DNA of 64,000 nucleotides, taken from Orobanche coerulescens (lineage: Eukaryota > Streptophyta > Magnoliopsida > Lamiales > Orobanchaceae). The position numbers and the translations under genes were made by a program. The stretch spans positions 203,317,096-203,381,095 of the forward strand of contig CM065802.1 of the NCBI GenBank assembly GCA_033398695.1, written 5' to 3'. The notes beneath the pieces are model-generated. The model saw only the letters and a list, made by a program, of their open reading frames with translations. It was not told the origin of the DNA and searched no databases. This document shows positions 2,958 to 61,835 of the stretch, piece by piece (position 1 is the first letter of the stretch; every line of letters begins with the position of its first letter).

Positions 2958-3947
2958 GCCCCGCCCACATTCACACAATCACACACATATCACAATGCAA
3001 CAAAGATATCCAAATAATTCATCCAGAGGCATCAACACTTAGCCAAACACCACGTCAAACCACAACGCACCGAAATGAAATAATATGCGCCCACACGCAA
3101 TACCAAGTGCAACATCAACACCAAACATATCCATAGAGTTCACATAGTCATTCTCAAACCACACCATTTACAAAACACACGCGTTTTGAAAGCAAGCCTT
3201 TAACAAGGCTAAACCGAATCTTTTGAAAGTTCAAACACACGATCAAATAAACACATAGAGACGGTTACTAATTATCATATCCACAAAACAAGAATTGTAT
3301 GGACAAGGTACTTGCCTCGATACCACGAGCACGGAACCACGAACGGATACGGCTCAACCGAAGCTTCGAACGCCCGATGCTAACGAAAAGGGAATACGAC
3401 GAACGGAACGGAAGAATCAAGCACGGCCGTGAGGAACCGACGAAAATGAACCTAACGATTCGAATAGCACAATCACAACCACTTCTAAACGATTATGGAA
3501 ATGGAATACACGGAACCCCGCCTACGATTCATGTATATTCATACCGAAAACAACAACGAGGCGGACCACAACCAAACCCTCTCGATTCCGTAAAAATCCA
3601 CAAAATATCCATGAATCCGTAGGGAAACTAAAGATACTAACAAGATTAATCATATTCATCATGAATCCATCAACGAAACGGAAAGAATCGGACAAAACCC
3701 CAAAATCCCCAATTATCCAAAAAGGTAGGGTTTCAAGAGATATTACCTTGAGTGATTCAAGTGTTAAGATCCGTAGAACACGCGTTAGATTGATTATCCG
3801 AGCCTCACAACCGAAAAGAAATGATGAAAATCGACCCCCGGATGAAGAACTCTCTCCCTCTATCTCTCCTCTCTCGCGGCGTGATGGAAAAATTGGAAAG
3901 AAATGAGCTTCACGCTCAAAACAACGCATTTAAAGTGTAACACCAGA

Positions 3948-3980
3948 CCTATCGGCCGGCCTATCGGCCGATAGGCCCAC
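3948..3980. promoter_or_regulatory. U3 palindrome cluster, LTR A1
   Basis: Overlapping copies of CTATCGGCCGATAG and half-sites lie directly before the probable start region of the minus-strand LTR (a TATA-like TTTAAATG lies about 20 bp downstream in element sense). A role in promoter binding is inferred from position only. Confidence 0.6.
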
Positions 3981-5871
3981 CCGATCGCCATACTGAATGT
4001 AGGCAGTAGAGGAAATCGACCCCCCATCGCGCCCGAAAGCCTCCGGTAAGTGCTCGGCCAAAACCGGACACGACCATAACTCTCTCGTCCGGACTCCGAT
4101 TGACTCACCGTTTGAACCATTGGAAAGCTAACTCGATGTTCTATAATATTGCAAAGATTTATAATTTTTGGAGTCATCAAAAATTAATGGTGATCTAACA
4201 AAGACGAACTCATACTTAGAAAAGTCGTTTAGTAATCCCGAATTCAACAAAACGACACCGAAACCCGAACTGAATACGAACCAAGATACGGTTACGAAGT
4301 ACTCACAAAGACGAATCTAAGAGCTAGTAGGACACACGATTCCGACCACCCGAAGGCTCGAATTCAACAACGGAAGTAATTACCCAAAACTTTGGGAAAT
4401 TACGAAAATGGCCCAAAACGTCCGAAAATCACGATACGCGATCGAAACACCAAACCAAAGCTCGCAACATGAATAATAACATTAAATGAACTTACGAGAA
4501 ACTCAAACGACAGCTGGACGAGATTCGCAAGAATCGAGCTCAAGTGCGAAAAGTCGCTAAAAGCACGGAACTCAACAAAACAACACCAAACGAACTCGGA
4601 TGACAAAAAGTGAAGAATTAATCATTCTCGAAATGACGAAATGGTCATGAGCGAGTCGTCAAAACGGACTTCCGCCGAAAAAAAGAAAATTACCGAAATT
4701 CGAAATTGCGGATATTACATTCTACCCTCCTTAAAAGAAGTTTCGTCCCGAAACTTAAAACAAGTAGGGGGAAGCAATATACCCTGCCAGGAAAACTCGA
4801 CGAGATACGCAAAAACCGAAAACTCGCGCCCGACGGCGAAACGCTGCAAGAAACGCAAAGAGACATACGGCGTGAAAACACGCTCCACGACGACCAATAC
4901 CACGTCGCCGTTAGGAACATACTAAAGTCAACAAGTGACAAGCGTCAACAAACAGATAGTATAATCCAGTCGATTATCCAGACAATCACAAAACACAACG
5001 AACGAAAATCAACAGGATTGACCCACCCAACGGTACATCAATCAAAACGTGGCCAACCGCTGAACAAATACAGAATTCCACCGCCCAAGGGTTGGAAGAT
5101 TGAAAACGAGACTAACTTCCCGAACTTAAGGGAATTTCGAAAGAGTCTGAATGTTCAACAATCACGAAACGAGATCAACAAAAACTGAACAATCAAACGA
5201 TCGAACCACAAAGATCGAGACAACAAAAATCGAACGATCATGTTCGAATCACAAAGAACAATAAAGTTCAAACAACAACTCCCAGGACGATCTGGTGAGA
5301 ACTACAAGACATGCATTGCCGAAGATCCACAGGAAAGGGAATAGCGATTGAAAAGTCACAACGACAACGAGTTATTCCGAAATAACACCACACTCGTTCG
5401 ATCAACAAAAGCAAGGAGCAGGGCAAGCTCAGAAATGTCAACGAACATAAATGAGTCGACAGAGTCGAAAACACAAGAGTTCCAAAGCCGATCCACTTCG
5501 AATAAAAGAACTTGTAGAACCAGATGATGTCACTCCCAAACAAGGTTCACAAGAATCGAACTGAACTCAAAAAAATCACAGCGATAACCAGATTGACCCA
5601 AAACAAGATCACAGCTCGTTCGAACGACGAAACCGAAATACAGAACAAGTTCAGAAAGTATCAACGAACACGAGCGAGTCGATAGACTCGAGAAAGAGAA
5701 AATGCAGGAGTCTAAAAACAACACGGGTACTACATTCGACCTCTTATAAAAGAAGGTCGCCCCCGCAACTCGCAACAGCGAAATCAAGGTGACGGCACAA
5801 CAAGCAACTGACAGAAACATCCTTCAAAGGCCTCTCAAAGCCGATTCCGATGACTGTGCTGAAGCGCGAAC

Positions 5872-8547: not shown

Positions 8548-9540
8548 CCCCGCCCACATTCACACAATCACACACATATCACAATGCAACAAAGATATCC
8601 AAATAATTCATCCAGAGGCATCAACACTTAGCCAAACACCACGTCAAACCACAACGCACCGAAATGAAATAATATGCGCCCACACGCAATACCAAGTGCA
8701 ACATCAACACCAAACATATCCATAGAGTTCACATAGTCATTCTCAAACCACACCATTTACAAAACACACGCGTTTTGAAAGCAAGCCTTTAACAAGGCTA
8801 AACCGAATCTTTTGAAAGTTCGAAACACACGATCAAATAAACACATAGAGACGGTTACTAATTATCATATCCACAAAACAAGAATTGTATGGACAAGGTA
8901 CTTGCCTCGATACCACGAGCACGGAACCACGAACGGATACGGCTCAACCGGGAAGCTTCGAACGCCCGATGCTAACGAAAAGGGAATACGACAACGAGCG
9001 GAGCGGAAGAATCAAGCACGACCGTGAGGAACCGACGAAAATGAACCTAACGATTCGAATAGCACAATCACAACCACTTCTAAACGATTATGGAAATGGA
9101 ATACACCGGAACCCCGCCTACGATTCATGTATATTCATACCGAAAACAACAACGAGGGCGGACCACAACCAAACCCTCTCGATTCCGTAAAAATCCACAA
9201 AATATCCATGAATCAGGGAAACTAAAGATACTAACAAGATTAATCATATTCATCATGAATCCATCAACGAAACGGAAAGAATCGGACAAAACCCCAAAAT
9301 CCCCAATTATCCAAAAAGGTAGGGTTTCAAGAGATATTACCTTGAGTGATTCAAGTGTTAAGATCCGTAGAACACGCGTTAGATTGATTATCCGAGCCTC
9401 ACAACCGAAAAGAAATGATGAAAATCGACCCTGATGAAGAACTCTCTCCTCTATATCTCCTCTCTCGCGGCGCGATGGAAAAATTGGAAAGAAATGAGCT
9501 TCACGCTCAAAACAACGCATTTAAAGTGTAACACAGCAGA

Positions 9541-9630
9541 CCTATCGGCGGCCTATCGGCCGATAGGCCCAACCGATAGCCATATCGAATGTAGGCAGAG
9601 AGTCTATCGACCCCCTATCGGCCGAAAGGC
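9541..9630. promoter_or_regulatory. U3 palindrome cluster, LTR A2
   Basis: Contains CTATCGGCCGATAG, CTATCGGC half-sites and CCTATCGGCCGAAAGG. Same place in the LTR as the cluster at 3948-3980 but better preserved downstream. Confidence 0.6.
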
Positions 9631-10310
9631 TCTGGAAGTGCTCGGCCAAAATCGAAACGACCATAACTCTCTCGTCCGACTCGATTGACTCACCGTTTGA
9701 ACCATTGGAAAGCTAACTCGATGTTCTATAATATTGCAAAGATTTATAATTTTTGGAGTCATCAAAAATTAATGGTGATCTAACAAAGACGAACTCATAC
9801 TTAGAAAAGTCGTTTAGTAATCCCGATTCAAAGAAACGACAGAAACCCGAACCCGAATACGAACCGAAGATACGGTTACGAAGTACTCACAAAGACGAAT
9901 CTAAGAGCTAGTAGGACACACGATTCCGACCACCCGAAGGCTCGGAATTCAACAACGGAAGTAATTACCCAAAACTTTGGGAAATTACGAAAATGGCCCA
10001 AAACGTCCGAAAATCACGATACGCGATCGAAACACCAAACCAAAGCTCGCAACATGAATAATAACATTAAATGAACTTACGAGAAACTCGAAACGACAGT
10101 TTCGGACGAGATTCGCAAGAATCGAGCTCAAGTGCGGAAAAGTCGCTAAAAAGCACGGAACTCAACAAAACAACACCGAAACGAACTCGGATGACAAAAA
10201 GTGAAGAATTAATCATTCTCGAAATGACGAAATGGTCATGAGCGAGTCGTCAAAACGGACTTCCGCCGAAAAAAAGAAAATTACCGAAATTCGAAATTGC
10301 GGATATTACA

Positions 10311-11837: not shown

Positions 11838-12045
11838 ACACGAGCAGGCCACACGAGCACGTGGTCGTGCGTGGCGCTCGTGCGCTATCCAGCGCTCGGC
11901 AGTGAGCTCCAGGGACGCACGAGAAGGACACACGAGCAACTACTCGTGCGCGTTGCTCGTGCGTGGTGTCAGTGGCTGGGCAGTGGCCTAGCGCATGACC
12001 AAACACACGAGCACTTGGTTGTGCATTATGGTCGTGCGTCGCTGG
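11838..12045. promoter_or_regulatory. U3 palindrome cluster, GCACGAGC type
   Basis: About a dozen copies in both orientations of CACGAGCA / GCTCGTGC and close variants, ending within about 10 bp of the TATA box at 12048. The motif differs from that of LTR A although the LTR starts are homologous. Confidence 0.6.
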
Positions 12046-13271: not shown

Positions 13272-14163
13272 TGTAATATCCGGATTTATTACGGTGTATT
13301 TCATCTGTATTCAAACCCTGTATTATTCGGATTGGTGGTTTTGATTATTGGAGTATGATATTTCTTGCATTGATATCATTGTACATAAGTATAGAAGCAT
13401 GCAAAATTGCTCATGAAAACTCGTGATAGCGCATGGTAAGAATGTATCTTAACGCGCGCTATCGGGCTACTATTAGCGTACGCTATGCAGGTAGGAGTTG
13501 CGTGCGCTAAGAACTCAATTATTGAGCGGGATGGCTAGCACATGCGCCAGCCGGGACATGGGTCCGGATAAGATTCCCGCGGACGAACCTGGACAGTTCT
13601 GAAGTCAACTTTTATTAGCGCACGCTAAGGAAAGCTTAGTAGCGTGCGCTAACTTGTTAAAATGCAGAATATTATAAATGGGACAACAACTCGTTTTGGC
13701 TTACATTTTTACTCGACCATTCTGCATTCTTGAGAGGCCAGAGAGCTGAAATATCCTCCTACACACTTAGAACACATTTTGTTGGTGTTTATATATTGGT
13801 TATCACTTGGGAATAATCATTGAAGTGGAATAGCACCTTGGAGTGGCATACAACCAACCGGAGTTGGATTCTACCTTACGGTTCAGTGATTTTCATCATA
13901 TTAAGGTATGTTCAATCTATCTCCAGACTTAGAGTTGGATTCTAACGATTTGGATGATCATGTTAACAAGATATGGATTTTCATAGATGAATTATCCAAA
14001 GTATATCATGTTTGGAATATTGAGATGATTAAGCCTTAAGTACCTTGATTATGATCATCATGATTCAAATCTTATTACATTGAACAAAGTAAAGGAAGCT
14101 TCTATCATTGGTAATCCGAATCTAGTAGATGACTTCATAGCAATCATGGACTTGACTTTATCA
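13272..14163 (+). repeat. LTR B, left part (split by CACTA)
   Basis: Begins TGTAATATCCGGATTTATT at 13272. It has TAGCGTGCGCTA-type palindromes at about 13420-13660 followed by a TATA-like ATTATAAATG near 13670. The sequence breaks exactly at the CACTA insertion and resumes at 20696 after the TCA duplication. Confidence 0.6.
13420..13660. promoter_or_regulatory. U3 palindrome cluster, TAGCGTGCGCTA type, first LTR B block
   Basis: At least six copies or half-copies of TTAGCGTACGCTA, TAGCGCACGCTAAG and TAGCGTGCGCTAAC. The last lies about 25 bp before a TATA-like box. Confidence 0.6.
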
Positions 14164-20692: not shown

Positions 20693-22175
20693 TCATTATT
20701 GTTAGATAAATCTAAGGGATTGATCATGGAAGGATTTATCTAGTATAGATGGAATGTTAAACAACTTCAGCATGATAATATTGATTGATGTAAAGGTGTT
20801 GATATCAACCGTTAAGCCTTTCGAATTGTCGTATGAAGATTTGTAGTCGAAATGGAATATGGTTTTATATGGTATGCATATCCTTGAATCCGAAGTTGTT
20901 GTTATCCGTAAGATCATTCATAAACGTATGTACATTATATTCATGGAGGTAACATGAATTATCACGGAAGATTTCATTGTTGTGATCATGATGAGAACAG
21001 TTTACTGCCCAGCAGTAAACTGCCATGCATAGATAGCGCACGCTAAACTATGAAAATTAACGTGCGCTATCGAACACTAGTTAGCGTACGCTACGTTTGG
21101 TACGTAACGTACGCTAGGCCATCAGACGAGTCAGTCGACTGATCAGTGAAGTACTGACCATACATAGTTAGCGTACGCTAGGCTTTGTTGTTTGCGTGCG
21201 CTATCGAGCAGACTTAATGCACGCTACGCAGAGTACTTAGCGTGCGCTAAGCAGTTCAGGCAGATTGCATTTTATGAACTTTTGGCCGTAAATCGAATTG
21301 TTAAACATTCGTACGACGTGAGATAAATCCTATATCATTTCTTTTGTTAAGGTTTGGTCTCGTTACGTGATTGTTTGAGGAGGACGACCTTTGAGTGTTC
21401 ATTTTCGTGGAAGTGTTGTTCTTGTCTTCAAATCGAGGCAAGTACCTTAATTGTTTTATGTATTGATGTTATACGTATTGTCGTGCATGTATGTCGTTGT
21501 TGTATGTCCACCTCGCGTTGGTCTGACGGGATCATCGGGGGATCTATGCTAGCGTGCGCTGGATCATCGGACGGGTTTTTCCACCACGGGTTGGTCTGAC
21601 GGGATCATCGTGGGTTCTAGGCAGTGAACGCTGGATCGACGGAATTACCATGTGTATGTTATGATATCATGTTGTGATTATCACTTGTGCATGTCATTTT
21701 TGAGTTTCTCGTAGGAGAAGACTCGTTGGTATTTTTCTTGTCGTTTACGTTATTCGTGAGATATGAATAATATGTTGTGGTACTTGTACTAGCATCGTTG
21801 TGCTAACCCCTTCGGGGGTGAACATTTTGTTTATGTTCAGGATCCAGGAGAGCGGGAAAACAACCATTGGAGTTGCATGACGACGAGGGTGCAGAGTGAT
21901 GTTTCGGTCGGGTTTATTTGTCTGTTGTTTATTGGTTATTTCAATAAGTACTCGAGTACGAAGTCATTTGTGATGAATTTGAATTTGGTGATGTATTATT
22001 GAGTTCTGTTGAACAATTGTACTATTTTTGTATTTGGTCAGAATTGTCGTATCGTAATTCCGTTATTTCCATTCGTTAGTACCTTTTAATGCCTGTTCAA
22101 TTCTTCAGCCTTGTAAATCCTTATGTAAAGGATTTACGGCGCTGTAATATTCCTAAATATATCGGGGGTGTTACA
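20693..22175 (+). repeat. LTR B, right part
   Basis: Resumes after the TCA duplication and ends GGGGGTGTTACA at 22175, directly followed by a PBS. It contains a second TAGCGTGCGCTA cluster (21034-21255), the LTR-family landmark TCGAGGCAAGTACC (about 21434), a short tandem repeat (GGTCTGACGGGATCATCG, 21520-21640), and the AACCCCTTCGGGG motif near 21805. Two palindrome clusters in one LTR may mean that B is itself a fusion of two LTRs. Confidence 0.7.
21034..21255. promoter_or_regulatory. U3 palindrome cluster, TAGCGTGCGCTA type, second LTR B block
   Basis: Eight or so copies of TAGCGCACGCTA, TTAGCGTACGCTA and TTAGCGTGCGCTAAG. It is followed by AGGCAGATTGC, a spacer word also seen near 31823 and, as CAGGCAGTAG, in LTR C. 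Confidence 0.65.
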
Positions 22176-23719: not shown

Positions 23720-23933
23720 TGTAATACCCGAGATCTTCGTTTTGGTTTCGTTGAATTTTTCTTCGGTCGAGTGGATTTTTATCGTCCGCGTCTTTGGAAT
23801 CGTGTGCTTGCACTGTGGTACGTTGAGTTTCGTAGCCTGTTCGTTATTGTTTCGGATCTTAGTCAGTGTGTTTGCGTGATCGAGACGTCCTCGAGTATCG
23901 AGTCGGATTGTCGGGTGTCGGCTGCTGGGATCG

Positions 23934-24232
23934 AGTTACGGCCGTAAGACTCCCGCACACGCTGGCCTGGGAGGACTCGGTTACGGCTGTAAGGGTTAAC
24001 CTGTTACGGCTGTAAGGCTTCGTTACGGCCGCAAGGCATTGGCCGGTTACGGCCGTAATGCGTCGGCAGATTTCAGGCAGTAGCCCTGGGGACCTGGTTA
24101 CGGTCGTAAGGCCAGGTCGAGTATGGCCTTAAGGCATGCTCGTTACGTATGTAAGGCAGCAGCCATTACGTATGTAAAGGCAGTTGACCGAGTTACGGCT
24201 GTAAGGCACTGCCGGTTACGGCCGTAACACTG
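23934..24232. promoter_or_regulatory. U3 palindrome cluster, TTACGGCCGTAA type, LTR C
   Basis: About twelve copies of GTTACGGCCGTAAGGC, with variants GGCTGTAAGG and TTACGTATGTAAGG, lying just upstream of the probable start region (GGCGGCTGCGGACGGGAGGA). The homologous LTR D has a different palindrome at this place. Confidence 0.7.
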
Positions 24233-25194
24233 TCGGCCATACATAGGCCTGGGCTTCGGATAGACCTCATTTGCTTGCGTTTTCTTCACTTGGTGGCGGC
24301 TGCGGACGGGAGGAGTTATTGGACGGTTCTAATTAATTCCAAGGCGTTTTAGAAGATGCGTTTCGATTATATCATTACCGAATCCTTGTTCTTCGCCGGA
24401 TCGAGGTATTTCTTCTGTAGAACCCTAGTTGTGTATTTTTTTGGGGGGGTTTCTTCGTGATTCGTTGTTTTTGTCCGAGATTGATGAATTGTTCTTGGTA
24501 TTCTTGTTGTATTGATCGTGGTCTTCGGATTTTGTAACTCATTTATCGATTTTTATCACCTAGACCTTGATTCTCGATTTCCTTGAAGAAACCCTCGGAT
24601 TCTTGTTGTTTTTCGGGTTGATTCGGATTCCGTTTAGCATTATTGATTCGTGGTGATATTATTTTCGTAGTTTTCGTGGAGTTGTCGAGTTCTTGGTCGT
24701 TTTTAGAAGTTCGAGGGCTACTTGACCGTGTCCGTTCGTCGTTTCCTTGCTCGTGGTATCGAGGCAAGTATCTTGCCCATACGTTTCATGTTTCTTAGAC
24801 GTAATTGTTGGTGAATGATTTTATGTGCTATCCGAATGTTTAAATGAACCTTAAAAGGATCGGTATGTTCTCGATAAATGTTGTCTTTCAAAATATAACT
24901 CGTATGCTTCGTAAACAAATGTGTTTTCGGAATATGTGTGTTGGTTTCGTATGTTGGAAGATGTTACAATAATATTTAGTGAATATAGTAGACCGTATTA
25001 ATTGTCGAGGATTGTGTATTGATAAGTGTAATTGTTATGAGAAAATGTGATATCATGTGATATGATTTGTGACTCCTTTATAAGGAGGTGGCGATGTTCC
25101 TTGTGGTTTGTAAATTGCACGTGCTTGTTATTGTGTGATCGTTGTAAGTGATGTGCCTCCGGGTAAGATTGTTGAATCTTCGGGATCCGTACTT

Positions 25195-25620
25195 TCTAGT
25201 ACGGGTCGGGAGTGACCGTAGGGTTATCCAATCGGGTATGTCTTGCGGGGACTCCGAGGTTCGTGGATTGTTAGCGCGATGCCGGGGATGAGTTGTGGGG
25301 TTATCCATCGGGTATGTCTTGCGGGGAGTCTGAGGTTCGTGGCTTGTTAGTGCGATGCCGGGATAACTTATGGTTGTGGATTGATCGTGTGATGTACTTG
25401 TCATGGATTTTCCAATTGGGTAAGTCTCGTGGAGGCTCCGAGGTTCGTAGCTTGCTAGTGCGATGCCGGGACAACTATGAACGTACGTATGGTTGTGATT
25501 GTGTGACTGTTGTCACTGTGATATGTGAATTGGTATGGTTTCCCATTGGGTTATTCACTCGGGTATGTTCTGCGGGAGCATATGAGGTTCGTGGCTTGGT
25601 AGCACGGGACGCGAATAATC
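25195..25620. repeat. Tandem repeat in LTR C
   Basis: Four units of about 90-110 bp built on GGGTATGTCTTGCGGGGA, CTCCGAGGTTCGTGG and GTGCGATGCCGGGA. LTR D has the same repeat, in the opposite strand, at 47160-47470. Confidence 0.85.
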
Positions 25621-26392
25621 CTTGGTAATATGTTGTTATGGATGATTGGGTCGTGGACCCCGTGCTTCATGATTTGGGTCGTGGACCTCCATGCCTTGTC
25701 ACCGGAATTGTATTTTGGAAAATAATTTTTGGGCTGTGTCCCTAAGTGTTTTCGAAAGACTTGAGAATTCTTAAATCCCAAATGTTTTCAAAACTCCCAA
25801 GATCGTAAATGTCTTGTAAGATGTACTTTGGGTTTATTTCCCACATTTTATGATTTGAACTGTCTTGATCAAGTGATTTATCTCGGGAGGTATATTCACG
25901 ATTATTATGTTCTTGGAGTATGTTGTGTATAGCTTGTATTCGTATTTTATACTTGCACTAGCAAAACAGTGGAGTTTTGCTAACCCCTGAGTTTTCGGGG
26001 GGTGGATGTCTGTATTGCTTCCAGGTACTTGCATGTTGCCAGGGAGCGAATCACAGCATCGTTACGAAGGATGATGGAAGACGACGGTACTAATCACATG
26101 AAGACCAGTATTGAGTTTTTGGTAGAGTTCTGTTGTTTGTCTCTCCGTTGTGTTATTCTCCCGTTTTATGGGAATGTTGTTGTATGTTAACCCCTGCGTG
26201 GGTATGAATTGTGAGAAAGAGTTATGTATGCTTGATGTGTATGTTGTGTACAAGACCAAATCGGTCTAACGGTTCATTACATAGCCATGTCGGCATGTAA
26301 TGTGATGTATTGTTTTTGTATTTAGCCTGGTTGATCCTCACGGAGAAGGTCTGTGGCGCTGTAATATTCCAGAGTGTTTTGAGGGTGTTACA

Positions 26393-31738: not shown

Positions 31739-31975
31739 TTAGCGCATGCCAAGTGTGGAGCTAGCGCGCGCCAGCGTGGCATGGCTAGCGCACGCTAAGT
31801 CTCTGTTGGAGCGCACGCTACTCAGTCTAGGCAGAATCTCGGGAATAGCACTTTGGCCGTAGGTCTAATTTTTGTGATTGTTAGACTGATCATTTGTGAC
31901 CGTATTCTATGTGTGTTGTCCAGTGATAACAATTGTTGTGTGTGATTATGTGATCTTTCGTTGCGATAGGTTTTC
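31739..31975 (+). repeat. LTR scrap with TAGCGCACGCTA palindromes
   Basis: Contains TTAGCGCATGCC, CTAGCGCACGCTAAG and GCGCACGCTACTCAG and then AGGCAGAATC and GGCCGTAGGTCTAATT, aligning with the 21230-21300 part of LTR B. Both sides are unrelated, so it is an isolated fragment of a B-type LTR promoter. Confidence 0.7.
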
Positions 31976-46362: not shown

Positions 46363-47159
46363 CATATTCTGTAACACCCCCAAACCAATCGGGAATATTA
46401 CAGCGCCGCAGACCCTCTCCGCGAGGATCTACCAGGCTAAATACAAAACAATGCGTCACTTCACATGCCGACATGGCTACGTAAAGGACCGTTAGACCGA
46501 TTAGGTCTTATATCACAACACACACAACATTACATACATGATACTTGCCCAGAACACATACCCACGCAGGGGCTAGAATACAATAACACTTCCATAAATC
46601 GGAGTAACAACACATCGGAGGGATAACCAACATGACTCTATCATATACTCTACAATTGGTCTTCACGTGATTAGTATCTTCGTCTCCCATCATCCTTCGT
46701 ATCGATCCTGTGATTCGCTCCCGCCTACTGCAAGTACCGGACGCAATCTGAGACATCCACCCCCCGAATACTCGGGGGTTAGCAAAACTCCACTGTTTTG
46801 CTAGTGCAAGTATAAAACCAAAAGTACAAGCCATACATAACTTGCTTCAAGAATATAAAATCTTGAATATATTTCCCGAGATAATTCACTTAATCAAAAC
46901 AGTTTGATTTATAAAAGGTAGGAAAAGAACCATGTGTCTCATACAAAATATTTTACGGTCTCGGGAGTTTGAAAACATTTGGAAATAATGAATTCTCAAG
47001 TCTTTCGAAAACACTTGGGGACACGGCCCAAAATCATCTTTCCAAAATACGATTCCAATAATAAAACGCGGTTCCACAACCCAATTCACAACACACGGGG
47101 TCCAAGACCCAAATCATAAGCCACAGGGTCCACGACCCGAATCACATAACACATGTTCC

Positions 47160-47470
47160 TAAGGATTATTCGCGTCCCGTGCTAACAAGCCACGAACCTC
47201 AGATGCTCCCGTAGAACATACCCGAGTGAATAACCCAATAGGAAACCATACCAAATCACATGTCCTCGTGACAACAGTCACGGAACCATTCCATACCACA
47301 ACCATAAGTTATCCCGGCATCGGGCTAACAAGCCACGAACCTCGGAGTCCCCACAAGACATACCCGATGATAACCCCACAAGTTATCTCGGCATCGGGCT
47401 AGCAAGCCCCGAACCTCGGAGTCCCCGCGAGACATACCCGGATTGGATAACCCTACGGTCACGCCCGACC
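47160..47470. repeat. Tandem repeat in LTR D
   Basis: Three to four degenerate units with GGGCTAACAAGCCACGAACC and GGAGTCCCCGCGAGACATAC, the reverse complement of the LTR C repeat. Confidence 0.85.
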
Positions 47471-48438
47471 CATACTAGCAAGTATGGATCCCGGAGATTC
47501 AACAATCCTACCCGGAGGCACATCACTTTCAGCAATCACATCACAAGGAGTAGAACATCAAGCCAAGCAACACTTAAACATCACAGCCTCCTTTCAAAGG
47601 AGTAACAACTAATATCCCACGTAATACATTCTTAACGAACAAGTACCCATAATATTACGTAATCCCCGCCAAAGGATTACGGTCTAATAGACTCATTCAA
47701 AATGATCATATCATCTTTTCAACATACAAATCCAACACACATATTCCGAGAACACATATATTCACGAAGTACATAAATTATCGTTGGAAGACAACATTTA
47801 TCGAGAACATACCAATCCCTTTTACGTTCATTAAACATTGGGTTTCGTATATAATCATTTATCAATAATTACGCCTACGAAACATGAAACGTATGGACAA
47901 GATACTTGCCTCGATATCACGAGCAACGAAACGACGAACGGGCGCGATCGGGCAACCTTCGAACCTCCAAAAACGATCAAGACTTCGACAGCCCACGAAT
48001 ACTACGAAAATAGCATCACCACAATTCAATAACACTAATCGAAATCCGAAACGATCCTAAAAACGACAAGGATCTAGGTATTCTCAAAGAAATCAAGAAT
48101 CGTTGATCCGGGCGATAAAAGTCGATGAACGGTTAACAAAATCTGAAGATTACGGTCAAGACAAACAAGAACAAATAACCGATCGGATGAGATCGGTCAA
48201 GAATCACAAATCCAAGCAAAAACCCCAAATTTAAGAAAATAGGGTTCTAACAAGAGATTACCTTGATTTGGACCAAGAAGACGATTAGATGTTGTTAAAC
48301 ATCTACAAATCCACTCAAAGATGAAGCTAGAAGAAAAGGATCGGTCCTACTCGCCTCTGGATCTCACTCCCGTCGGAAGAGATGAAGAAAAGTGGGAAAA
48401 TGACGACTTAACGCCGTTGTCCAAGATTTATCTCGATA

Positions 48439-48817
48439 TTAGCGTGCGCTAATCATCCTTCATTAGCGTGCGCTAACGGGGTCAACGCTCCAGAGAAACC
48501 GCGTATAACCTAGTTAGCGTGCGCTAGCCCAAAAGCCGTAGCGTGCGCTAACGGGTCACAAAACCAGTCCAGTAGCCTCTGGACAGAACTGCACCTACCG
48601 AGTAGCGTGCGCTAGAAAGAAGAGGGAGCGTGCGCTAAGCAGTCGATAGCGTGCGCTAGCTATCGGCCTTAGCGTGCGCTAACAAAGCTCCAGTCCTAGT
48701 CCAGTAGTTACTGGACTGCCTCTGAACTGCCAGTTTAGCGTGCGCTACACATTCGGTAGTGTGCGCTAAACACCACGCAGTAGCGTGCGCTATGCTTCAA
48801 GCATTAGCGTGCGCTAC
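48439..48817. promoter_or_regulatory. U3 palindrome cluster, TTAGCGTGCGCTAA type, LTR D
   Basis: At least twelve nearly perfect copies of TTAGCGTGCGCTAA, evenly spread and separated by spacers such as CCAGTAGCCTCTGGACAGAA. In element sense it lies directly before the probable start region. Confidence 0.75.
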
Positions 48818-48982
48818 ACCACAAAATCTCAAAAACTCACAAAGTGATCCGAAATGCCTCCAAAAACATGTCCCAACAAGTCACAACCAAACATGGCACA
48901 AAATTCCTACGATGAGGACCATGACAATCCGATAAAACCCAGAAAACCCAACGAATCCGGAATAAAGATCTCGGGTATTACA

Positions 48983-50470: not shown

Positions 50471-50479
50471 GGCTTCCGT

Positions 50480-50645
50480 AAGTATTGATACTGCCGTAAT
50501 GGTGTTCTTGATACGGCCGTATGTGTCTTTCATCAGATTGTCCAGTTTCTCTCCAGAGGCCAGTTACGGCCGTAAGAGAGTCAGGATACGGCCGTAATAT
50601 TCCAATGTTACGGCCGTAAGTGGGTTGTGTTATGGCCGTAACACC
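50480..50645. promoter_or_regulatory. U3 palindrome cluster, TTACGGCCGTAA type, LTR E
   Basis: Six or more copies of ATACGGCCGTAAT or GTTACGGCCGTAAG. The last lies about 10 bp before the TATA box. Confidence 0.7.
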
Positions 50646-50651
50646 TGCCAA

Positions 50652-50659
50652 TATATAAA
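50652..50659 (+). promoter_or_regulatory. TATA box of LTR E
   Basis: TATATAAACTGG, identical at 57791 in LTR F. A pyrimidine-rich start region and GCGACGGGAGCGACG follow. Confidence 0.65.
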
Positions 50660-51269
50660 CTGGCAGCGGCCCATTTTTTTTCCTCATTTCTCATATCTTT
50701 CTTTTCTCTTCGCGACGGGAGCGACGGCAGAGGCTAGGGTTCGTTCGATTTTGATCCAAACTCCATTGTAAGGGCATATTCAAGTATCATACCATCCACC
50801 TATCGCTAATCATCCATCGTTCATCTTCGAATCTAGGTAAATCTTCTAAGAACCCTATTTTTGGGTAAATTGGGGGTTTTCGGGTTGTTGTTCGATTCGT
50901 TCCGTGTGATTGATATATTCATGATGAATATGATTAATCTTTTTAGTATCCTTAGTTTTCCTACAGATTCATGGTATATTTCGTGGTTTTTGCGTAATCG
51001 AGAGGGTTTGGTTGTGGTCCGCCCTCGTCGTTGTTCTCGGGCGAATATACATGAATCGTAGGCGGGTTTTCGGGTGTATTCCATTTCCGTATTCGTTTAG
51101 AGTTGGTTGTGATTATGTTCTTCGAATCGTTAGGTTCGGTTTCATTGGTTCCTAGTGTTCGTCGGTGATTTTCCTTTCCGTTCGTTGCGTCATCAATTAT
51201 TTAAGGCAAGTATTTTTGGAAACCTTTATGCTTAACATGTAATGGTAATGTATATTGTGTGTGCTTTGC

Positions 51270-51520
51270 TCACCTCGGGAGGGTCCGACGGGATCACGGA
51301 GGGAATCCAATGGATTAGCCCTGGATTCACGAGTTTGTTTCGCTAGCCAGCTCGGGAGGGTCTTTAGAGGCCTCGGGTGGGATTTGTGGCTTCGTCCCAG
51401 TCCTAGACGATGCCTGTGCGTGATTTGTTTTATAAGTGGCCATCTCGGGAGGGTCCTTAGAGGACTCGGGTGGGATTTGTGGCTTCGTCCCGGTCCTAGG
51501 AAAATTGATTGACTGTTTGT
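51270..51520. repeat. Tandem repeat in LTR E
   Basis: Two to three units with CTCGGGAGGGTCC, GGCCTCGGGTGGGATTTGTG and CGTCCCGGTCCTAGG. LTR A1/A2 hold a single homologous unit near 2645-2720 and 8230-8300. Confidence 0.85.
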
Positions 51521-52045
51521 TTCCGGGAAAGACATGTCTGGTTTTTGGTTTTGAAATGAATTTGGTGCATTGGACTATGAAATGTGTAAGCGATTGGTTT
51601 GCCTTGATTACTTGTACTAGCATAATTACTAACCCCTTTGGGGACCCGTTGTGGGGAAATTCTTATTATGGATTTCAGGTTATGATCATCCGGACGAGCG
51701 AGCGCTGGGACAGTACGGGGATGTTGGCCAGGTTCGTTGACATGTGCACTCAAGTCCTTTTATTTCCGTTGTTCTATTCGATATGGTTGTTGTCTACTTT
51801 TGAAACTTATAGATTGTGCTCGCGAGTACTTAGGCTTTTCTCTTCGGATTGTGATTTGTATTCGTCGAAGTTATTTATGTTTTCCATTGTCGATTATCCC
51901 GCCGGTTGTATCGGGCGTGTTATTTGATTTTCAACTGGATGATGTGTGTTTTTACTGTGGTAAGTTGTGTCTAGCATGGTGGGTCCCATGTAAGGGTCCA
52001 CGGCACTATAATATACCTTGAATATCACGGGGGTGTTACAGAAAA

Positions 52046-52057
52046 TGGTATCAGAGA
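52046..52057 (+). other. Primer-binding site of element H
   Basis: TGGTATCAGAGA, matching initiator-Met tRNA at 11 of 12 positions. Confidence 0.8.
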
Positions 52058-52277
52058 ACTAGGTTTATGGATACCTAGGCTTGTCGGTTATTTGGGTCTA
52101 GTTGTGTTTTGTGTTGCACATTGTCACGCCGCTGCCAGCATCTCGGTACTTCCAGTGCTCGTAAGTTTTCCTTACTCGATCCTTTGTTTTCTCGTATTGT
52201 ATTTCTGTTTCTTGAATCGTGGATGTTTTCCTCTCTTACTTATCACCAAGTTGCTTTTGCTACCTCTTAACACCAGT

Positions 52278-53381
52278 ATGGATGCTGGAAGAGGCCGTGG
52301 ACGAGGTCGTGGTCGTGGTCATGGACGCGTCCGGGGACGTGGGGTAGCCGGTGCGGAGGCCACGTCGCATTCTTCGGGAGCCGGCAGTACAGGTGACCGT
52401 CGCAGTCATGCTTCTTCTCAGGAACGCGCCGACCTTGGTATTGCGGCCGTTATGCAGCAAATGGTAAACCAAATGGCGGCGATAGCTCAGGTGGTTCAGA
52501 ACCCGGATCCGGCCCATGCTAATCGGGGTGGAGCAGACCGTTGGCTCCAAGATGTCATCAAGATGTATCCTCCTCGTTTTTCGGGAGCATCAGACCCGAT
52601 CAGCTGGGAGGGGTGAATCAAAGAGATATCTAAAGTATTTATTGCCACCAACTGCCCCGAGGACCGTAAGGTCCCTATTGCCCAGTACTTTCTCACTGGG
52701 GACGCTACGGATTGGTGGGAGGCCGTTGGGCCCAAAGACCATGTTGCTTCGTGGGCTGAATTTCTGGAATTGATGGAGACTGAATACTGCCCGTGGCCGG
52801 TTAGACAGGCTCGAGTTCATGCCTTCTATGATGCTCAACCACGGTATATTCCTGTCTCTCAAGCTATTGCCGAGTTCAACAAGGAGTTGGGCTATGTGAA
52901 GACCCAAGTTTTCGAGGAGAGAGACAAAATTTTTCACTTTTCCCGACGGATGAAACTGTCAATTCAGGATTACATGTCTGGGCTCGTCTGTATTACTTTG
53001 AAGGATTATCAGAGTCGAGCTCTTGCCTATGATATGTCAGTGACAGCCAGTGCGGCGGTTCGGGAGAGTAAGAAACAGAAATCCGCCGGAAATTTCTCGG
53101 GCCACATGGGTGGAGGTCAACAGAAGTCTGAGTCTGCGAATATTCCTGGAGGTAATTCGGCTCGTTTCTCTGGGATCTATCGAGGTAATGCTAGTGCCTC
53201 CGTTCGGGATGCCAAATGCTTTAACTGTAGCGAGTCGGGCCATCGAAACTTGGAGTGTCCTCGTCCGCCTCTGACTTGTCATACTTGTGGTCAGTCGGGC
53301 CACAAGGCTTTCTTTTGTGAGCGGGCACGACAGTTTCTTGGTGCTCAGACTTCTTTTCAGCACCTAGGGAGTCGAGTGTAA
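52278..53381 (+). pseudogene. gag: gag of element H (one in-frame stop)
   Basis: Starts MDAGRGRGRGRGRG, the family GR-rich start. Reads WLQDVIKMYPPRFSGASDP and then an in-frame TGA at 52614, where the equivalent position in relatives is tryptophan. It resumes with IATNCPEDRKV, YFLTGDATDWWEAV and FNKELGYVKTQVFEERD, and ends with two knuckles, CFNCSESGHRNLEC and CHTCGQSGHKAFFC. Forms the capsid and binds element RNA. It is full length apart from the stop and provides the reference that shows what the pol-less copies have lost. Confidence 0.9.
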
Positions 53382-55648
53382 ACCAGGGCTCGTTTGCTCC
53401 GCAGCCTCCGCCGAGTGCCGGTCGAGGTAGAGGTCGGGGTCAGCCCGCTAGAGGAGGAGCTTTCAGTGTCGGCTCTGCCCAGCCGCGTATCTATGAGATG
53501 AGGAGGGCCGATGATCCAGCAGCCACTGTGGCGACAGATACCGTTCATATTCATTCTCATCCTATCAGTGTGCTTTTTGATTCTGGTACTACACATTTGT
53601 TCATATCGCTGGAGTGTGTGCGCCGTTTGAGTCTCGACTGTTTGTCGCCTTGCAAGTATTTTATTGTTAAACTTACTAGCGGTGATAGGATCGTTGGCGA
53701 TCGAGAGGTCCGAGACTGCTCTGTGTTTATTTGTGAGAGAGCTTAGCTCTCTAATCTTATTGTCGTTAATATTGAGGGTGAGGATTTGATTCTCGGCGAT
53801 GATTGGCTCGAGCGGCATGGCGCAATCATGAACTACTGCACGAGGATCATCACCATGTTAGCTGAGGACGGCACCGAGCACTCTTTCGCAGGGCGAAAGA
53901 TAGGAAACCAGAAGTTCTTTATTAACGCCTTAAAGGCGATGAGGCTCCTGTGGAAGGGGTGTACTGGTTATTGGTGCTATACCTTGAAGACGGAGGATGG
54001 TGGAGTCGAGTTTTCGTCGATTCCAGTCGTTAGTGAGTTTCTTGATGTATTTCTTAACGAGTTACCGGGATTGCCACTGGATCGTGAGGTCGAGTTTGCT
54101 ATAGAGTTAGAGCCGGGCGCGGCTCCGATTTCGAAGGCGCCATACCGCATGGCACCTTCAGAGATGACCAAGTTGAAGAAGCAGTTGAGTGAGCTTCTTG
54201 AGTCGGGGTATGTTCGACCGAGCGCTTCACCTTGAGGCGTACCGGTCCTGTTTGTGCGGAAGAAGGATGGTTCATTGCGTTTGTGTATCAACTATCGCGA
54301 ACTAAACAAGGTGACCATCAAGAATAAGTATCCTTTGCCGAGAATTGATGATCTGTTCGATCAGTTGCAGGGGGCTTCGGTATTCTCGAAGATTGATTTG
54401 AGATCGGGGTACTATCAGCTCCGGGTGAGGGAGTCCGATGTGCCGAAAATAGCTTTTCGGACGAGATACGGACATTATGAGTTTGTAGTTATGCCCTTCG
54501 GGTTAACTAATGCGCCGGCGGTGTTTATGCAGTTGATGAACAAAGTCTTTATCGAGTATGTGGATAAGTGTGTCGTCGTCTTCATTGATGATATTCTTAT
54601 TTATTCGAGGAACGAGGAAGAACATGCCCATCATTTGCGAGTAGTGTTAGACATTTTGAGGACCGAGCAACTCTATGCGAAGTTCTCGAAATGTGAGTTC
54701 TGGCTGAAGGAAGTGATGTTTTTAGGTCACGTGATTTCAGCCGAGGGGGTTCGTGTGGATCCACAGAAGATTGAGGCAGTGTTGGATTGGGCACCACCCA
54801 AGAATGTGAAGGAGATCCGTAGTTTCTTAGGTTTGGCCGGCTACTACCGTAGGTTCGTCGAGGGTTTCTCGAAACTGGCTCGGCCACTTACACAGTTGCT
54901 CCAGAAGTCCAAGAAGTTCGTCTGGAATGACGAGAGGCAGTCGAGTTTTGAGGAGCTGAAGAGGCGTTTGACTTCAGCCCCGATTTTAGCGTTGCCGTGT
55001 GGCAACGGGGGTTTTGCTATTTATAGTGATGCTTCGGGTCAGGGTCTTGGGTGCGTATTGATGCAGCACGGCAAGAACATCGCATATGCATCGAGGCAGT
55101 TGAGGCCGTATGAGCTTAACTACCCTACTCATGATTTGGAGTTAGCGGCAATTGTTTTTGCGCTCAAGATTTGGCGTCACTATCTTTTCGACTCTGCATG
55201 TCAGATTTTTACCGATCATAAAAGTCTGAAATACATATTTACTCAGCGGGAGTTGAATATGAGGCAGGGGAGTTGGTTAGAGTTGATTAAGGATTATGAC
55301 CTCGAAATCCTTTATCATCCGGGCAAGGCGAACGTCGTGGCCGACGCCTTGAGTCGGAAACCGGTTGCGTTGCGAACGCTTGAGATTCTTACGTCTCAGT
55401 CTAAGCTTCGGCAGGTTTTGATCAAGTTAGATGTTGAGGTTTTGTTGCCTGGAGCTGTCGGGCAACTTTGTGCTTTAGAAATTTCGTCGTCTTTGATCGA
55501 TGAAATTAAGCTGAAGCAGTTGGAGGATCCGATGATTACTCAAATCCGAGAGAACGTTCTTAAGGGAAAGTCTCCTGGGTTTGTGATTCACGAGGATGGT
55601 ATTTTGAGATTCCAGAGTCGGATTTGTGTACCGAACGACTCAGAGTAG
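53382..55648 (+). pseudogene. pol: Protease, reverse transcriptase and RNase H of element H
   Basis: One continuous frame, shifted relative to gag, with stops at 53744, 54233 and 55646. Protease active site VLFDSGTTH at about 53579. The RT part reads GDDWLERHG, then [33 protein letters not shown] and FIDDILIYS (about 54581), all catalytic positions present. RNase H reads [28 protein letters not shown] and VVADALSR with its acids intact. The stop at 54233 lies in SPWGVP (W to stop), within RT. Confidence 0.92.
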
Positions 55649-56923
55649 AGACAGAGTATTCTGCGTGAGGCCCATGCTACACCTTACTCCGTTCATCCTG
55701 GTTCGAGTAAGATGTACAAGGACCTGAGAAGGAATTTCTGGTGGAATGATATGAAGGAGGAGGTCGCACACTTTGTAGCGAGATGTTTGACTTGTCAGCA
55801 GGTCAAAATCGAGCATCAGCGATCGGCCGGGTTATTGCAGTCACTTCCTGTTCCGGAATAGAAATGGGAAGATATATCGATGGATTTCATTACGAGTTTG
55901 TTGAGATTGAGGTCGGGCATGAATATGGTCTGGGTGATTGTTGATCGTCTGACCAAGTCGGCACATTTTCTGGGCATCAAGGACACTTGGGGCCCGGAGA
56001 AATTGGCTCGTGTGTTTATCGCACAGATCGTGAGGCTTCACGGTACTCCGAAGTCTATTGTTTCGGATCGTGATGGTCGTTTTGTATCGCACTTTTGGCA
56101 TGCAGTGCATAAGGCGTTGGGCACTCATTTGCGTTTGAGTACCTCTTTTCAGCCTCAGTCAGATGGACAGTCGAAACGCACTATCCAGACATTCGAGGAT
56201 ATGTTGCGTGCTTGTGCTCTCGATTGGAGCAATGACTGGGAGGAGCATTTGCCATTGATCGAATTCACGTACAACAATAGTTGGCACGCGTCGATTCGGA
56301 TGGCACCGTATGAGGCACTTTATGGGCGGCGTTGTCGATCACCGATTTGTTGGAATGAGGCGTCTGATATGGTCGGGACCGAGCCGAATATCGTTCTAGA
56401 TACGAGGCGGAAGATAGAATTAATTCAGGAGCGGATGTTGACTGCCCAGAGTCGACAGAAGTCATATGCCGATGTCCGTCGTCGACCTTTGGAATTCGAG
56501 GTGGGAGATCATGTTTTGCTAAAGGTGTCGCCGACGATAGGAGTTTTCCATTTCGGGAAGAAAGGGAAGTTGAGTCCGAGATTCATTGGGCCCTTCGAGA
56601 TTCTCGAGCGAGTCGGTGGGTTGGCATACCGTTTGGCATTACCCCCGTCCCTGAGTCATGTTCATAGCGTTTTTCATATTTCCCAGATGAGGAAATATGT
56701 CTCGGATCCTAGCCACGTCATCGATTATGGCGAGATTGATGTCGCCGAGGATATTACTTTTGAGGAGCATCCTTTGAAGATTTTGAAGCATCGTGAGAAG
56801 CGAATGAGGCATAAGACCATCCCTTTAGTCAAGGTGCAGTGGTCGAGACATGGTGTCGAGGAGGCAACTTGGGAAACCGAGGATAGCATGCGTGCTAGGT
56901 ACCCCGAGTTGTTTGCTTCTTAA
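55649..56923 (+). pseudogene. pol: Integrase and chromodomain of element H (catalytic Glu to Lys)
   Basis: The zinc finger reads AHATPYSVHPGSSKMYKDL and CLTCQQVK. An in-frame TAG at 55859 stands for the tryptophan before KWEDISMDF. Core acids are the first Asp in [13 protein letters not shown] and the second in IVSDRDGRF. The glutamate expected 35 residues after the second Asp is lysine (DGQSKRT, codon AAA at 56174), so strand transfer should be abolished. Then GPFEILERVGGLAYRL, and the chromodomain IPLVKVQWSRHGVEEATWE runs to the stop, about 35 bp before the 3' LTR. Confidence 0.92.
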
Positions 56924-56958: not shown

Positions 56959-57478
56959 TGTAATATCCGCATTTTCTTTTTCCGGTATTTTCATTTTTGG
57001 TGTATTTTCCAACTCGTTTGTAACCGTTTCGACATTTTGAATCTATTTTATTCTTGGAGTTTCTTCATTTGGACGATCTTCAGTGGTGTTTTGATATTAT
57101 TCCGTTTTATGTCATGTATTGTGGCATGGACGTTCGATTCTCGTAAAACCCATTCTTTTTTGTAATCTCTTTGGTTTCACGAGTTCGTATGGGTGAGTTG
57201 GTCGTGTTGTAAGCTTCGGTTTGTTAATCCGACGTCGTATCGCGATTTTTGGACGTTTGGGCCATTTCGTAATTTCCCTAAGTTTAGGGTATTCTTGCTA
57301 TCCTTGTTGTTCCTGAACCTTCGGGTATTCGGAATCACGCTTCATCATAATGTTTTGGTTTCTGACTCGAATCCGTGGTGATTGTATCCATTGGTCGTTG
57401 CTACGCTTTGGTATTTTTCCGTTTATTCCTCGTCGAGTAGTTACTTCAGTTCTGGCCTGTTTGCTGTCCCAGGCTGTG

Positions 57479-57785
57479 TTACGGCCGTAATACTAGAGAG
57501 TTACGGCCGTAGGCATTTCTTTATACGACCGTAACAAGGATTCGTTTCTTGCCTCTTGGTCCAGTTCTGAGTTACGGGCGTATCATATTTGAGTTACGGC
57601 CGTAAGTATTGATACGGCCGTAATGGTGTTCTTGATACGGTCGTATGTGTCTTTCGTCAGATTGTCTAGTTTCTCTCCAGAGCCAATTACGGCCGTAAGA
57701 GGATACGGCCGTAAGAGAGTCAGGATACGGCCGTAATATTCCTATGTTACGGCCGTAAGTGGGTTGTGTTACGGCCGTAACACCT
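57479..57785. promoter_or_regulatory. U3 palindrome cluster, TTACGGCCGTAA type, LTR F
   Basis: At least eleven copies of GTTACGGCCGTAA, ATACGGCCGTAAT and variants. The full-length cluster, about 300 bp, ends 6-10 bp before the TATA box. Confidence 0.75.
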
Positions 57786-58399
57786 GCCAGTATATAAACT
57801 GGCAGCGGCCCATTTTTTTCCTCATTTCTCATATCTCTCTTTTCTCTTCGCGACGGGAGCGACGACAGAGGCTAGGGTTCGTTCTATTTTGATCCAAACT
57901 CCATTATAAGGGCATATTCAAGTATCATATCATCCACCTATCGCTAATCATCCATCGTTCATCTTCGAATCTAGGTAAATCTTCTAAGAACCCTATTTTT
58001 GGGTAAATTGGGGGTTTTCGAGTTTTTGTTCGATTCGTTCTGTGTGATTGATATATTCATGATGAATATGATTAATCTTGTTAGTATCCTTAGTTTTCCT
58101 ATGGATTCATGGTATATTTCGTGGTTTTTGCGTAATCGAGAGGGTTTGGTTGTGGTCCACCCTCGTCGTTGTTCTCGGGCGAATATACATGAATCGTAGG
58201 CGGGTTTTTGGGTGTTTTCCATTTCCGTATTCGTTTAGAGTTGGTTGTGATTATGTTCTTCGAATCGTTAGGTTCGGTTCCGTTGGTTCCTAGTGTTCGT
58301 TGGTGATTTTCCTTTTCGTTCATTGCATCATCAATTATTCAAGGCAAGTATTTTTGGAAACCTTTATGCTTAACATGTAATGGTAATGTGTGCTTTGCT

Positions 58400-58640
58400 C
58401 ACCTCGGGAGGGTCCGAAGGGATCACGGAGGGAATCCAATGGATTAGCCCTGGATTCACGAGTTTGTTTCGCTAGCCAGCTCGGGAGGGTCCTTTGAGGC
58501 CTTGGGTGGAATTTGTGGCTTCGTCCCGGTCCTAGGCGATGCCTGTGCGTGATTTGTTTTATAAGTGGCCAGCTCGGGAGGGTCCTTAGAGGCCTCGAGT
58601 GGGATTTGTGGCTTCATCCAGGTCCTAGGCAAATTGATTG
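58400..58640. repeat. Tandem repeat in LTR F
   Basis: Same units as in LTR E (CTCGGGAGGGTCC with GGCCTCGAGTGGGATTTGTG). Confidence 0.85.
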
Positions 58641-59149
58641 ACTGTTTGTTTCCGGGAAAGACATGTCTGGTTTTTGGTTTTGAAATGAATTTGGTGCATT
58701 GTACTATGAAATGTGTAAGCGATTGGTTTGCCTTGATTGCTTGTACTAGCGTAATTGCTAACTCCTTTGGGGACCCGTTGTGGGGAAATTCTTCTTATGG
58801 ATTTCAGGTTATGATCATCCGGACGAGCGAGTGCTGGGACAGTACGGGGATGTTGGCCAGGGTCGTTGACATGTGCACTCGAGTCCTTTTATTTCCATTG
58901 TTCTATTCGATATGGTTGTTGTCTACTTTTGAAACTTATAGATTGTAGCTTTTCTCTTCGGATTGTGATTTGTATTCGTCGAAGTTATTTATGTTTGTCA
59001 TTGTCGATTATCCTGCCGGTTGTATCGGGCGTTTGATTTTCAACTGGATGATGTGTGTTTTTACTATGGTAAGTTGTGTCTAACCTGGTTGGTCCCATGT
59101 AAGGGTCCACGGCACTGTAATATACCTTGAATATCACGGGGGTGTTACA

Positions 59150-61690: not shown

Positions 61691-61835
61691 GTAAACAGCC
61701 CCCAAGTCTCCTGCCAGGAGTTCATACCTCTGGCAACAGTTCCGATGGAAACTTATTCTTTCATTTTTATAAATAAATAATTAAGTATATATTGATTTAT
61801 TTGTGTTTATCGAAAACATAATATATGGAAAAATG

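Follow-up and report, generated by a model that had tools for sequence, protein, structure and literature searches.

En/Spm of maize, a CACTA transposon, has in its upstream control region a repeated 12-bp CpG-containing TnpA motif near the promoter, and TnpA is an element-encoded, dimer-forming protein that counters methylation. Tnt1 is a Ty1/copia element. In the available text of PMC1838419, the U3 of the Solanaceae elements Tnt1, Retrolyc, and Retrosol evolves as a module, related elements carry different and unrelated U3 modules, and there is no mention of a common dyad vocabulary in a preserved architecture. VANDAL elements of Arabidopsis carry dense, family-specific arrays of short motifs in noncoding DNA, with motif-distinct subfamilies and rapid turnover (PMC5735166, in the part available). 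These motifs lie in tandem repeats and their trans-factor is known, the VANC proteins showing that such arrays can serve anti-silencing (PMC5735166 and PMC10398659, both in the parts available). Among host proteins, the NAC family uses a half-site similar to those described below with a different palindrome spacing, according to the accessible part of PMC4081100. Our literature search, mostly outside subscription journals, found no paper on CpG dyad arrays in LTR promoters, and the accessible part of PMC11656987 holds no description of such arrays.

We examined a window of 64,000 nucleotides (the whole stretch of DNA analyzed) in which several LTR promoters carry arrays of CpG-containing dyad words. 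A repeated CpG-containing motif near the promoter resembles the TnpA sites of En/Spm; the factor is element-encoded there, whereas none was seen in the E/F element of the window, in which only gag-pol domains were recognized. As with Tnt1, related elements here carry different, unrelated U3 modules. The likeness to VANDAL lies in density, family specificity, motif-distinct types, and rapid turnover; here, in contrast, the arrays occupy LTR promoters, the dyads sit in unrelated spacers, and in some types their position is tied to the TATA box. Exchange of U3 modules (Tnt1, available text of PMC1838419) and motif arrays with differing letters (VANDAL) are already known, and what is new is a dyad vocabulary in LTR promoters, with an unusual scale and grammar. 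The features of the window are as follows.

48440..48816, minus strand, array D: 12 TAGCG-NN-CGCTA words, 10 with perfect arms and 2 with one change
46370..48982, minus strand, LTR D: TGTAATACCC at the 5' end and GTGTTACA at the 3' end
23936..24227, plus strand, array C: 10 TTACG-NN-CGTAA words
23720..26392, plus strand, LTR C: homologous to LTR D outside the U3 array region
50488..50641, plus strand, array E: 6 TTACG-type words, the last one 10 bp upstream of TATATAA at 50652
50476..52040, plus strand, LTR E: 5' LTR of the E/F element, lacking its own 5' end
52041..56923, plus strand, E/F internal region: gag, RT, RNase H, and integrase C-terminal SH3-like domain
57479..57780, plus strand, array F: 12 TTACG-type words, the last one 10 bp upstream of TATATAA at 57791
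56959..59149, plus strand, LTR F: 3' LTR of the E/F element
13427..13651, plus strand, array B1: 6 TAGCG-type words, in the LTR starting at 13272
21034..21249, plus strand, array B2: 9 TAGCG-type words, in an LTR with its 3' end at 22175
31740..31820, plus strand, array X: 4 TAGCG-type words, a truncated array absent from the original prediction
9527..9640, minus strand, A2: two dyads of the TATCG-GC-CGATA type, one of them with a single change, and half-sites, in the LTR at 10310-7475
3936..4040, minus strand, A1: one TATCGGCCGATA dyad, one poor dyad, and half-sites, in the LTR at 4719-1879
11842..12040, plus strand, G: CACGAGC/GCTCGTG half-site array, in the LTR starting at 11330

The original prediction had placed arrays of one self-complementary CpG word in each of these LTRs. 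We located such arrays in B, C, D, E, and F, with the qualification that TAGCGTGCGCTA is not perfectly self-complementary, since its two centre bases are free. The many copies announced for A1 and A2 came down to one or two full TATCG-GC-CGATA dyads plus half-sites, and the LTR at 11330 has, in place of a self-complementary word, the non-palindromic half-sites CACGAGC and GCTCGTG in direct and inverted order. Across the 64 kb we counted 34 perfect-arm NNNCGNNCGNNN dyads against a mean of 1.9 and a maximum of 6 in 100 first-order Markov resamples, so the dyad arrays of the window are not due to chance; 33 of the 34 fall in the U3 stretches described, the exception lying at 32155. Array D lies in the U3 of LTR D (Ty3/gypsy), which is followed by a PBS-like TGGTATCAG and has a polypurine tract (PPT) immediately 5'. 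Read in the LTR sense, its words form groups of 4, 4, 2, and 2, spaced 21–24 bp inside groups and 51–66 bp between them. B1 and B2 probably belong to a single LTR that an insertion has divided, since arrays that resemble them by eye stand ~1.1 kb apart in two of the sampled regions described below (L015 and L020). The array X fragment has weak similarity to B2 (62%, 157 bp) and to D (71%, 90 bp). LTRs A1 and A2 and the sequence between them (1-10310) form a tandem LTR-internal-LTR-internal arrangement with a 5.59 kb step and a short internal region. A tRNA-like stretch at about 50187-50475, which we take, also by eye, to be SINE-like, runs directly up to the truncated start of LTR E, the junction falling inside a word.

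On sequence evidence, the E/F-type family is classed as Ty3/gypsy, probably of chromovirus type, because it encodes RT, RNase H, gag, and an integrase tail with a weak chromodomain match, an assignment that draws on domain names, domain order, and plant relatives. Protein P0002 of this element matched the RVT_1, RT_RNaseH, and RT_RNaseH_2 domains, and the integrase tail gave a weak Chromo match (E 1.8e-4; 21.8 bits, below the curated 25.1). The LTR termini are TGTAATAYCC...GTGTTACA, of the TG...CA form; a PBS-like TGGTATCAGAG follows LTR E, and PPTs precede LTRs F, D, C, A1, and G. The RT, RNase H, SH3-like, and weak chromodomain matches together with TGGTATCAGAG resemble Tekay/Del-like chromoviruses, and we presume the lineage to be Tekay/Del, a name suggested by the C-terminus and LTR length only. 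To our knowledge, CpG dyad arrays in U3 are not a known trait of that lineage. In a protein search, the named matches among the best 120 of 8000 scored candidates were plants at 43–63% identity, mostly eudicots, including Tanacetum, Smallanthus, Solanum, Dionaea, and Camellia, and the closest entry among the matches listed in that set had 66% identity. Viral contigs searched for RT relatives yielded none that was confirmed, and when scanned for word patterns, one contig matched in one scan and none in another.

To sample U3 regions independently of the words, we used as a mark the conserved end of the internal region followed by the PPT and the LTR start. This mark occurs 59,137 times genome-wide (29,451 on one strand and 29,686 on the other; control 0). 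We hand-picked 58 usable U3 regions, all from contig C1 in the first 6.4 Mb of one chromosome, mostly in list order and with the last four chosen for PPT variety, the words not having been seen beforehand. At least four copies of one CpG dyad word were present in 45 of the 58: 19 with TAGCG, 13 with GTGCC, 9 with TTACG, 2 with TGTCG, 1 with TAACG, and 1 with ACACG. One of these 45, L080, owes its array to a nested LTR. The other 13 comprise 11 with fewer than four copies of any word, plus L076 and L077, in both of which the best automatic word fell outside the set; inspection shows three GTGCC words in L076 and TGTCG words in L077. The palindromes thus occur in most of the members sampled, so the cassette-exchange idea stands on this point, and the copy number put at 6–16 gave way to a range of 0 to 15 in this wider set.

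We then counted exact patterns across the genome (3,646,015,169 bases), taking the reversed pattern as control. There were 1,309,842 copies of TAGCGYRCGCTA (control 108), 184,551 of TTACGGCCGTAA (83), 170,680 of TTACGTACGTAA (255), and 101,126 of GTGCCGCGGCAC (26), about 1.77 million exact sites for the four patterns combined, with exact TAGCG words at roughly one per 2.8 kb. As these LTR families are very abundant, the counts alone prove little. A finder with no prior word, applied to 20 grid-placed 10 kb regions (L006-L025, 200 kb in all, not random draws), detected CpG-word arrays in 13 of the 20, leaving aside AT-rich and other clusters (window 34867, 61177, and 63267; L006, L010, L011, and L020), and found no cluster when window and sample together were resampled three times under a first-order Markov model. 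Two of the 64 possible outer triplets, TAG and TTA, account for 83 of the 97 perfect NNNCGNNCGNNN dyads in the sample, with a chance expectation of about 0.08 per triplet in 200 kb. Thirteen of 24 grid-sample arrays had no flank match to the U3 set, and eight of those 13 also had no LTR start of the expected form nearby; further LTR families therefore seem to use these words. Regions L018, L019, and L022 hold seven GTGCC arrays in which neither an LTR start nor homology to the U3 set was detected, two of them 11 bp from a TATA box, and GTGCC words seem to be used by further element families. The observed/expected CpG ratio was 1.10 in the window and 1.03 in the 200 kb sample; this lack of depletion is unexpected for TE-rich plant DNA if CpG is methylated.

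The words follow a recognizable spacing. Most stand 21–24 bp apart (23–24 bp in 93 of 199 TAGCG intervals, 21 bp in 34 of 86 GTGCC intervals with L080 included, and 22–24 bp in 34 of 77 TTACG intervals), and longer steps are mostly about 43–53 or 59–75 bp. Among periods of 9.5–12 bp tried over all pair distances, 10.5 bp scored highest at 0.32, below the 0.39–0.41 of the 22–24 bp step itself. Arrays had been described as ending ~10 bp before the TATA box. This held for E and F, for most TAGCG U3s (last word 11–13 bp before TATA in 17 of 20), and for part of the TTACG type (10–12 bp in 6 of 11, 18–24 bp in 4, no match in 1), but not for TATCG U3s, where the distance was 18–29 bp in all four, nor for GTGCC U3s. 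None of the 15 GTGCC U3s matched the first TATA pattern; a looser TATAA/TATAT lay at 16–18 bp in seven, and none followed the array in the other eight. The TAGCG word centre is oriented, reading CA in 157 and TG in 10 of 219 sites in the LTR sense. Letter information is mostly 1.2–2.0 bits within words (less at the TTACG centre and at GTGCC position 2) and mostly below 0.65 outside them (0.88 just before TTACG, 1.21 just after GTGCC), a contrast partly built in, since sites were called by similarity. Half-sites pair preferentially with their own kind, TAG-TTA hybrids numbering 14 against 49.5 expected. Neither CACGAGC, in the LTR at 11330, nor CGTGTC/GACACG, in L030, L037, and L063, fits TNNCG well.

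Several observations bear on how the words are maintained. The 9-base flanks after words were as unlike within arrays (likeness 0.306) as between arrays (0.305), so tandem-unit homogenization is not what keeps the words. Tandem Repeats Finder reported only 48756-48816 in array D and parts of array C; apart from these stretches, the arrays are not tandem repeats evolving as units in the manner of VANDAL. Over 22 disjoint homologous same-word pairs, arms differed at 132 of 1932 positions (6.8%) and spacers at 840 of 4917 (17.1%), where low arm variation is partly by construction, site calling having allowed at most two changed arm letters, and where counting as arm any stretch called as a word in either sequence biases toward conservation, a bias judged mild. 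Arms were the less diverged class in 21 of the 22 pairs, the exception being L056-L073. Selection on the words rather than homogenization of units appears to be the best reading of these comparisons.

The original prediction further held that motif type does not follow body relationship and that a promoter cassette has been exchanged between LTRs. Within the window, C and D do have homologous bodies (74% identity over about 2 kb) with different words, and D shares the TAGCG type with B. C shares the TTACG word with E/F, but the C and F spacers show no homology (z -0.5). The bodies of A and E/F, described as near-identical, match at 81–83% across some 360 bp and at 66% across the first 380 bases. 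U3 positions 1-470 of A and of the LTR at 11330 agree at 86–87%, after which the two arrays are unrelated. That LTR matches L047, L048, and L069 on both sides of the array (88–93% left, 89–90% right), and these three carry TTACG arrays in place of its CACGAGC sites; likewise, L059 (TTACG) and L078 (TAGCG) share an 87% left flank and a 97% right flank. Among the 58 U3s and six from the window, 11 different-word pairs have both flanks at 85% or more, reducing to four kinds (L048-L035/L038/L050; wG-L047/L048/L069; L059-L053/L078; and L071 or L074-L081 or L083). A separate count gave 23 different-word pairs, falling into three kinds, whose common left flank reaches the start of the array; in 18 of them GTGCC stands against TATCG and the shared piece is only 157–201 bases long. 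In this analysis we drew the array boundaries of wG, wA1, wA2, and L049 manually and dropped L080; no other internal LTR start was found by pattern, and the same-word count is 0 by design, because same-word pairs align across the array.

Individual cases illustrate the exchange. L056 tracks L068 (TAGCG) at 91% for 546 bases and then passes into a GTGCC array that shares homology with the arrays of L055, L073, and L081. L079 and window LTR F have homologous TTACG arrays, spacers included (z 18.6), yet over the first 230 bases L079 is 65% identical to LTR F and 92% identical to the TAGCG-bearing L053; as L079 and LTR F are alignable throughout (71% over 1.1 kb), their bodies are distant rather than unrelated. 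Similarly, L053 and L065 have a spacer z of 17.0, though their 5' ends match poorly. The swapped block often extends beyond the array, taking in the U3 from about 330–540 bp on and at times the downstream part.

With words masked, 11 of 20 hand-picked same-word pairs chosen without L080 had a spacer z of at least 5, four had 2.5–4.3, and five had less than 1. All six different-word pairs fell between -1.2 and 0.8, and blast among 50 arrays gave no match between arrays of different words. The five pairs without spacer homology (L047-L054, L047-wF, L054-wF, L054-wC, and wC-wF) fit strong selection on words or independent origin, not cassette sharing, and we rejected the idea that a shared word always means a shared cassette. 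In a tree built from the 5' ends of 37 U3s, the word assignment had to change 19 times with wordless rows counted as a label (minimum 7; 14 without those rows), against a mean of 23.5 for shuffled labels, which came as low as 19 in 1 of 200; the tree retains L080 with the label of its nested insertion. By this measure, words track descent to a weak degree. The pairs with shared flanks thus support exchange of a promoter cassette between LTRs, and the independence of word from body that had been proposed holds only in part.

Two lines of evidence for exchange were set aside. L080 was a candidate for recent exchange, its array being 94% identical to that of L040 in another body, but a decayed LTR start TATAATATCC at 369-370 begins an L040-type LTR and marks a nested insertion. 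It was dropped from the flank, letter-information and flank-likeness, arm/spacer, and half-site pairing results and retained in the word counts, the first-230-bp test, and the blast, spacer-z, spacing and TATA, and tree results. A pair test on the first 230 bp overstated exchange and includes nested-insertion cases; the claim rests on the flank analysis.

We consider the arrays to be probably, at about 0.6, homotypic clusters of binding sites for a dimeric protein that reads TNNCG half-sites just upstream of the core promoter. A binding array for a dimeric regulator, as originally suggested, would fit the anatomy: dyads in excess, near-two-turn spacing, conserved arms, homotypic pairing, unrelated arrays between shared flanks, and a TATA distance that is nearly fixed for TAGCG and for some of the TTACG and GTGCC arrays. 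Such a protein would read TAGCG, TTACG, TATCG, or TGTCG, or TGCCG without a spacer in GTGCCGCGGCAC, many times on one helix face directly upstream of the core promoter, and its binding may activate or de-silence the LTR, or possibly repress it. Swaps could arise by recombination, most simply by template switching between co-packaged RNAs or by ectopic recombination. Different words might engage different members of one protein family, in which case exchange would reset which regulator an element obeys. TTACG, TAACG, TAGCG, TATCG, TGTCG, and TGCCG can be linked one base change at a time, so that protein family and sites could drift together. The TATCG distance of 18–29 bp from TATA, the eight GTGCC U3s with no TATAA/TATAT beyond the array, and the clustering of words on the body tree count against this explanation, as does the fact that we know of no protein that binds these words. 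The CA orientation (157 versus 10) is not needed by a symmetric homodimer and could reflect shared descent.

If the words do bind protein, retrotransposons have seeded more than 1 million near-identical strong sites in this genome, which would form a large sink or source for one regulator, supply promoters to nearby genes, and offer a direct route to test how LTR elements change regulator; TAGCGCACGCTA, TTACGGCCGTAA, and GTGCCGCGGCAC would serve as exact DNA baits for fishing out the putative protein. We put forward only tentatively the wider idea of a genome-wide regulatory code run by retrotransposons. One-step-related TNNCG half-sites would act in it as interchangeable specificity tags, with about 1.77 million exact sites in largely pure arrays moving among LTR backbones, and the driving force would be an arms race of the elements with diversifying dimeric DNA-binding proteins of activating, anti-silencing, or repressive effect.

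Stress-responsive LTRs are known to have captured host transcription factor sites. The arrays could, with rather less likelihood than dimer-binding clusters as such, be ordinary activator sites of one plant transcription factor family, the words corresponding to tissue or stress niches. They adjoin TATA, and NAC proteins bind as dimers to TTNCGT[G/A] and CGT[G/A] cores that resemble TTACGTACGTAA (PMC4081100, accessible part). The palindromic NAC site searched for in the accessible part of that paper is, however, CGT-N7/8-ACG and not CG-N2-CG, and by inspection TATCGGCCGATA and GTGCCGCGGCAC contain no CGT[G/A], so that neither the NAC core nor its palindrome runs through all of the words. Anti-silencing on the VANDAL/VANC model is less probable again. 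The words would be targets of element- or TE-encoded demethylating proteins acting on their own noncoding regions and would diversify as each protein frees its own kin. VANDAL arrays are likewise dense, with short motifs in one orientation, subfamily-specific variants, and fast gain and loss (PMC5735166, available part), and TAGCG words too have a prevailing orientation and two CpGs each. VANDAL motifs nevertheless lie in tandem repeats according to the same source, whereas the bases beside words here are unrelated and tandem repeats are limited to the short stretch of D and parts of C. Furthermore, only gag-pol domains were recognized in the E/F element (shorter frames fell outside the search), and a factor would therefore probably act in trans from elsewhere.

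A role at the RNA level is very unlikely in comparison with dimer-binding clusters. The U3 is transcribed at the 3' end, and identical palindromes there could pair mutually in hairpins or dimers for packaging, polyadenylation, or dicing; a structural need would, however, permit covariation pair by pair, yet within an array the words have their letters in common and TAG-TTA hybrids are rarer than expected, and the helix-length spacing and TATA distance point to DNA. Equally improbable is a lack of any function, with the arrays arising as by-products of mutation and owing their spread to nothing but the copy number of a few LTR families, which are indeed very abundant (59,137 PPT-LTR starts), because arm changes are less than half as frequent as spacer changes in homologous arrays and the same words recur in arrays whose spacers lack homology.

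Finally, we note several minor features. The TATA box often lies in the loop of an inverted repeat, as in CTGCCAGT-ATATAA-ACTGGCAG, CTCCCTGG-CTATATAAA-CCAGGGAG, and CCTGGGTT-TATA-AACCCAGG (50645-50666, 57784-57805, and the U3 set); 12 of 31 U3s reached the 95% level of random positions, with few independent stems among them. Word groups are separated by spacers that have a second set of short motifs in common (among them CAGAACTG, CTGGAC, and ACTGCC), which is enriched relative to the rest of the window in a comparison of arrays A2, B1, B2, C, D, E, F, G, and X, uncorrected for the number of words tried. Another LTR family in the window (37470-37601 and 45099-45230) has a 26-bp tandem repeat whose unit contains a near-palindrome without CpG, GCACTTAAATGTGC. 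The segments 27145-30821 and 60361-64000 form inverted 3.7 kb arms, ~96% identical and some 30 kb apart.
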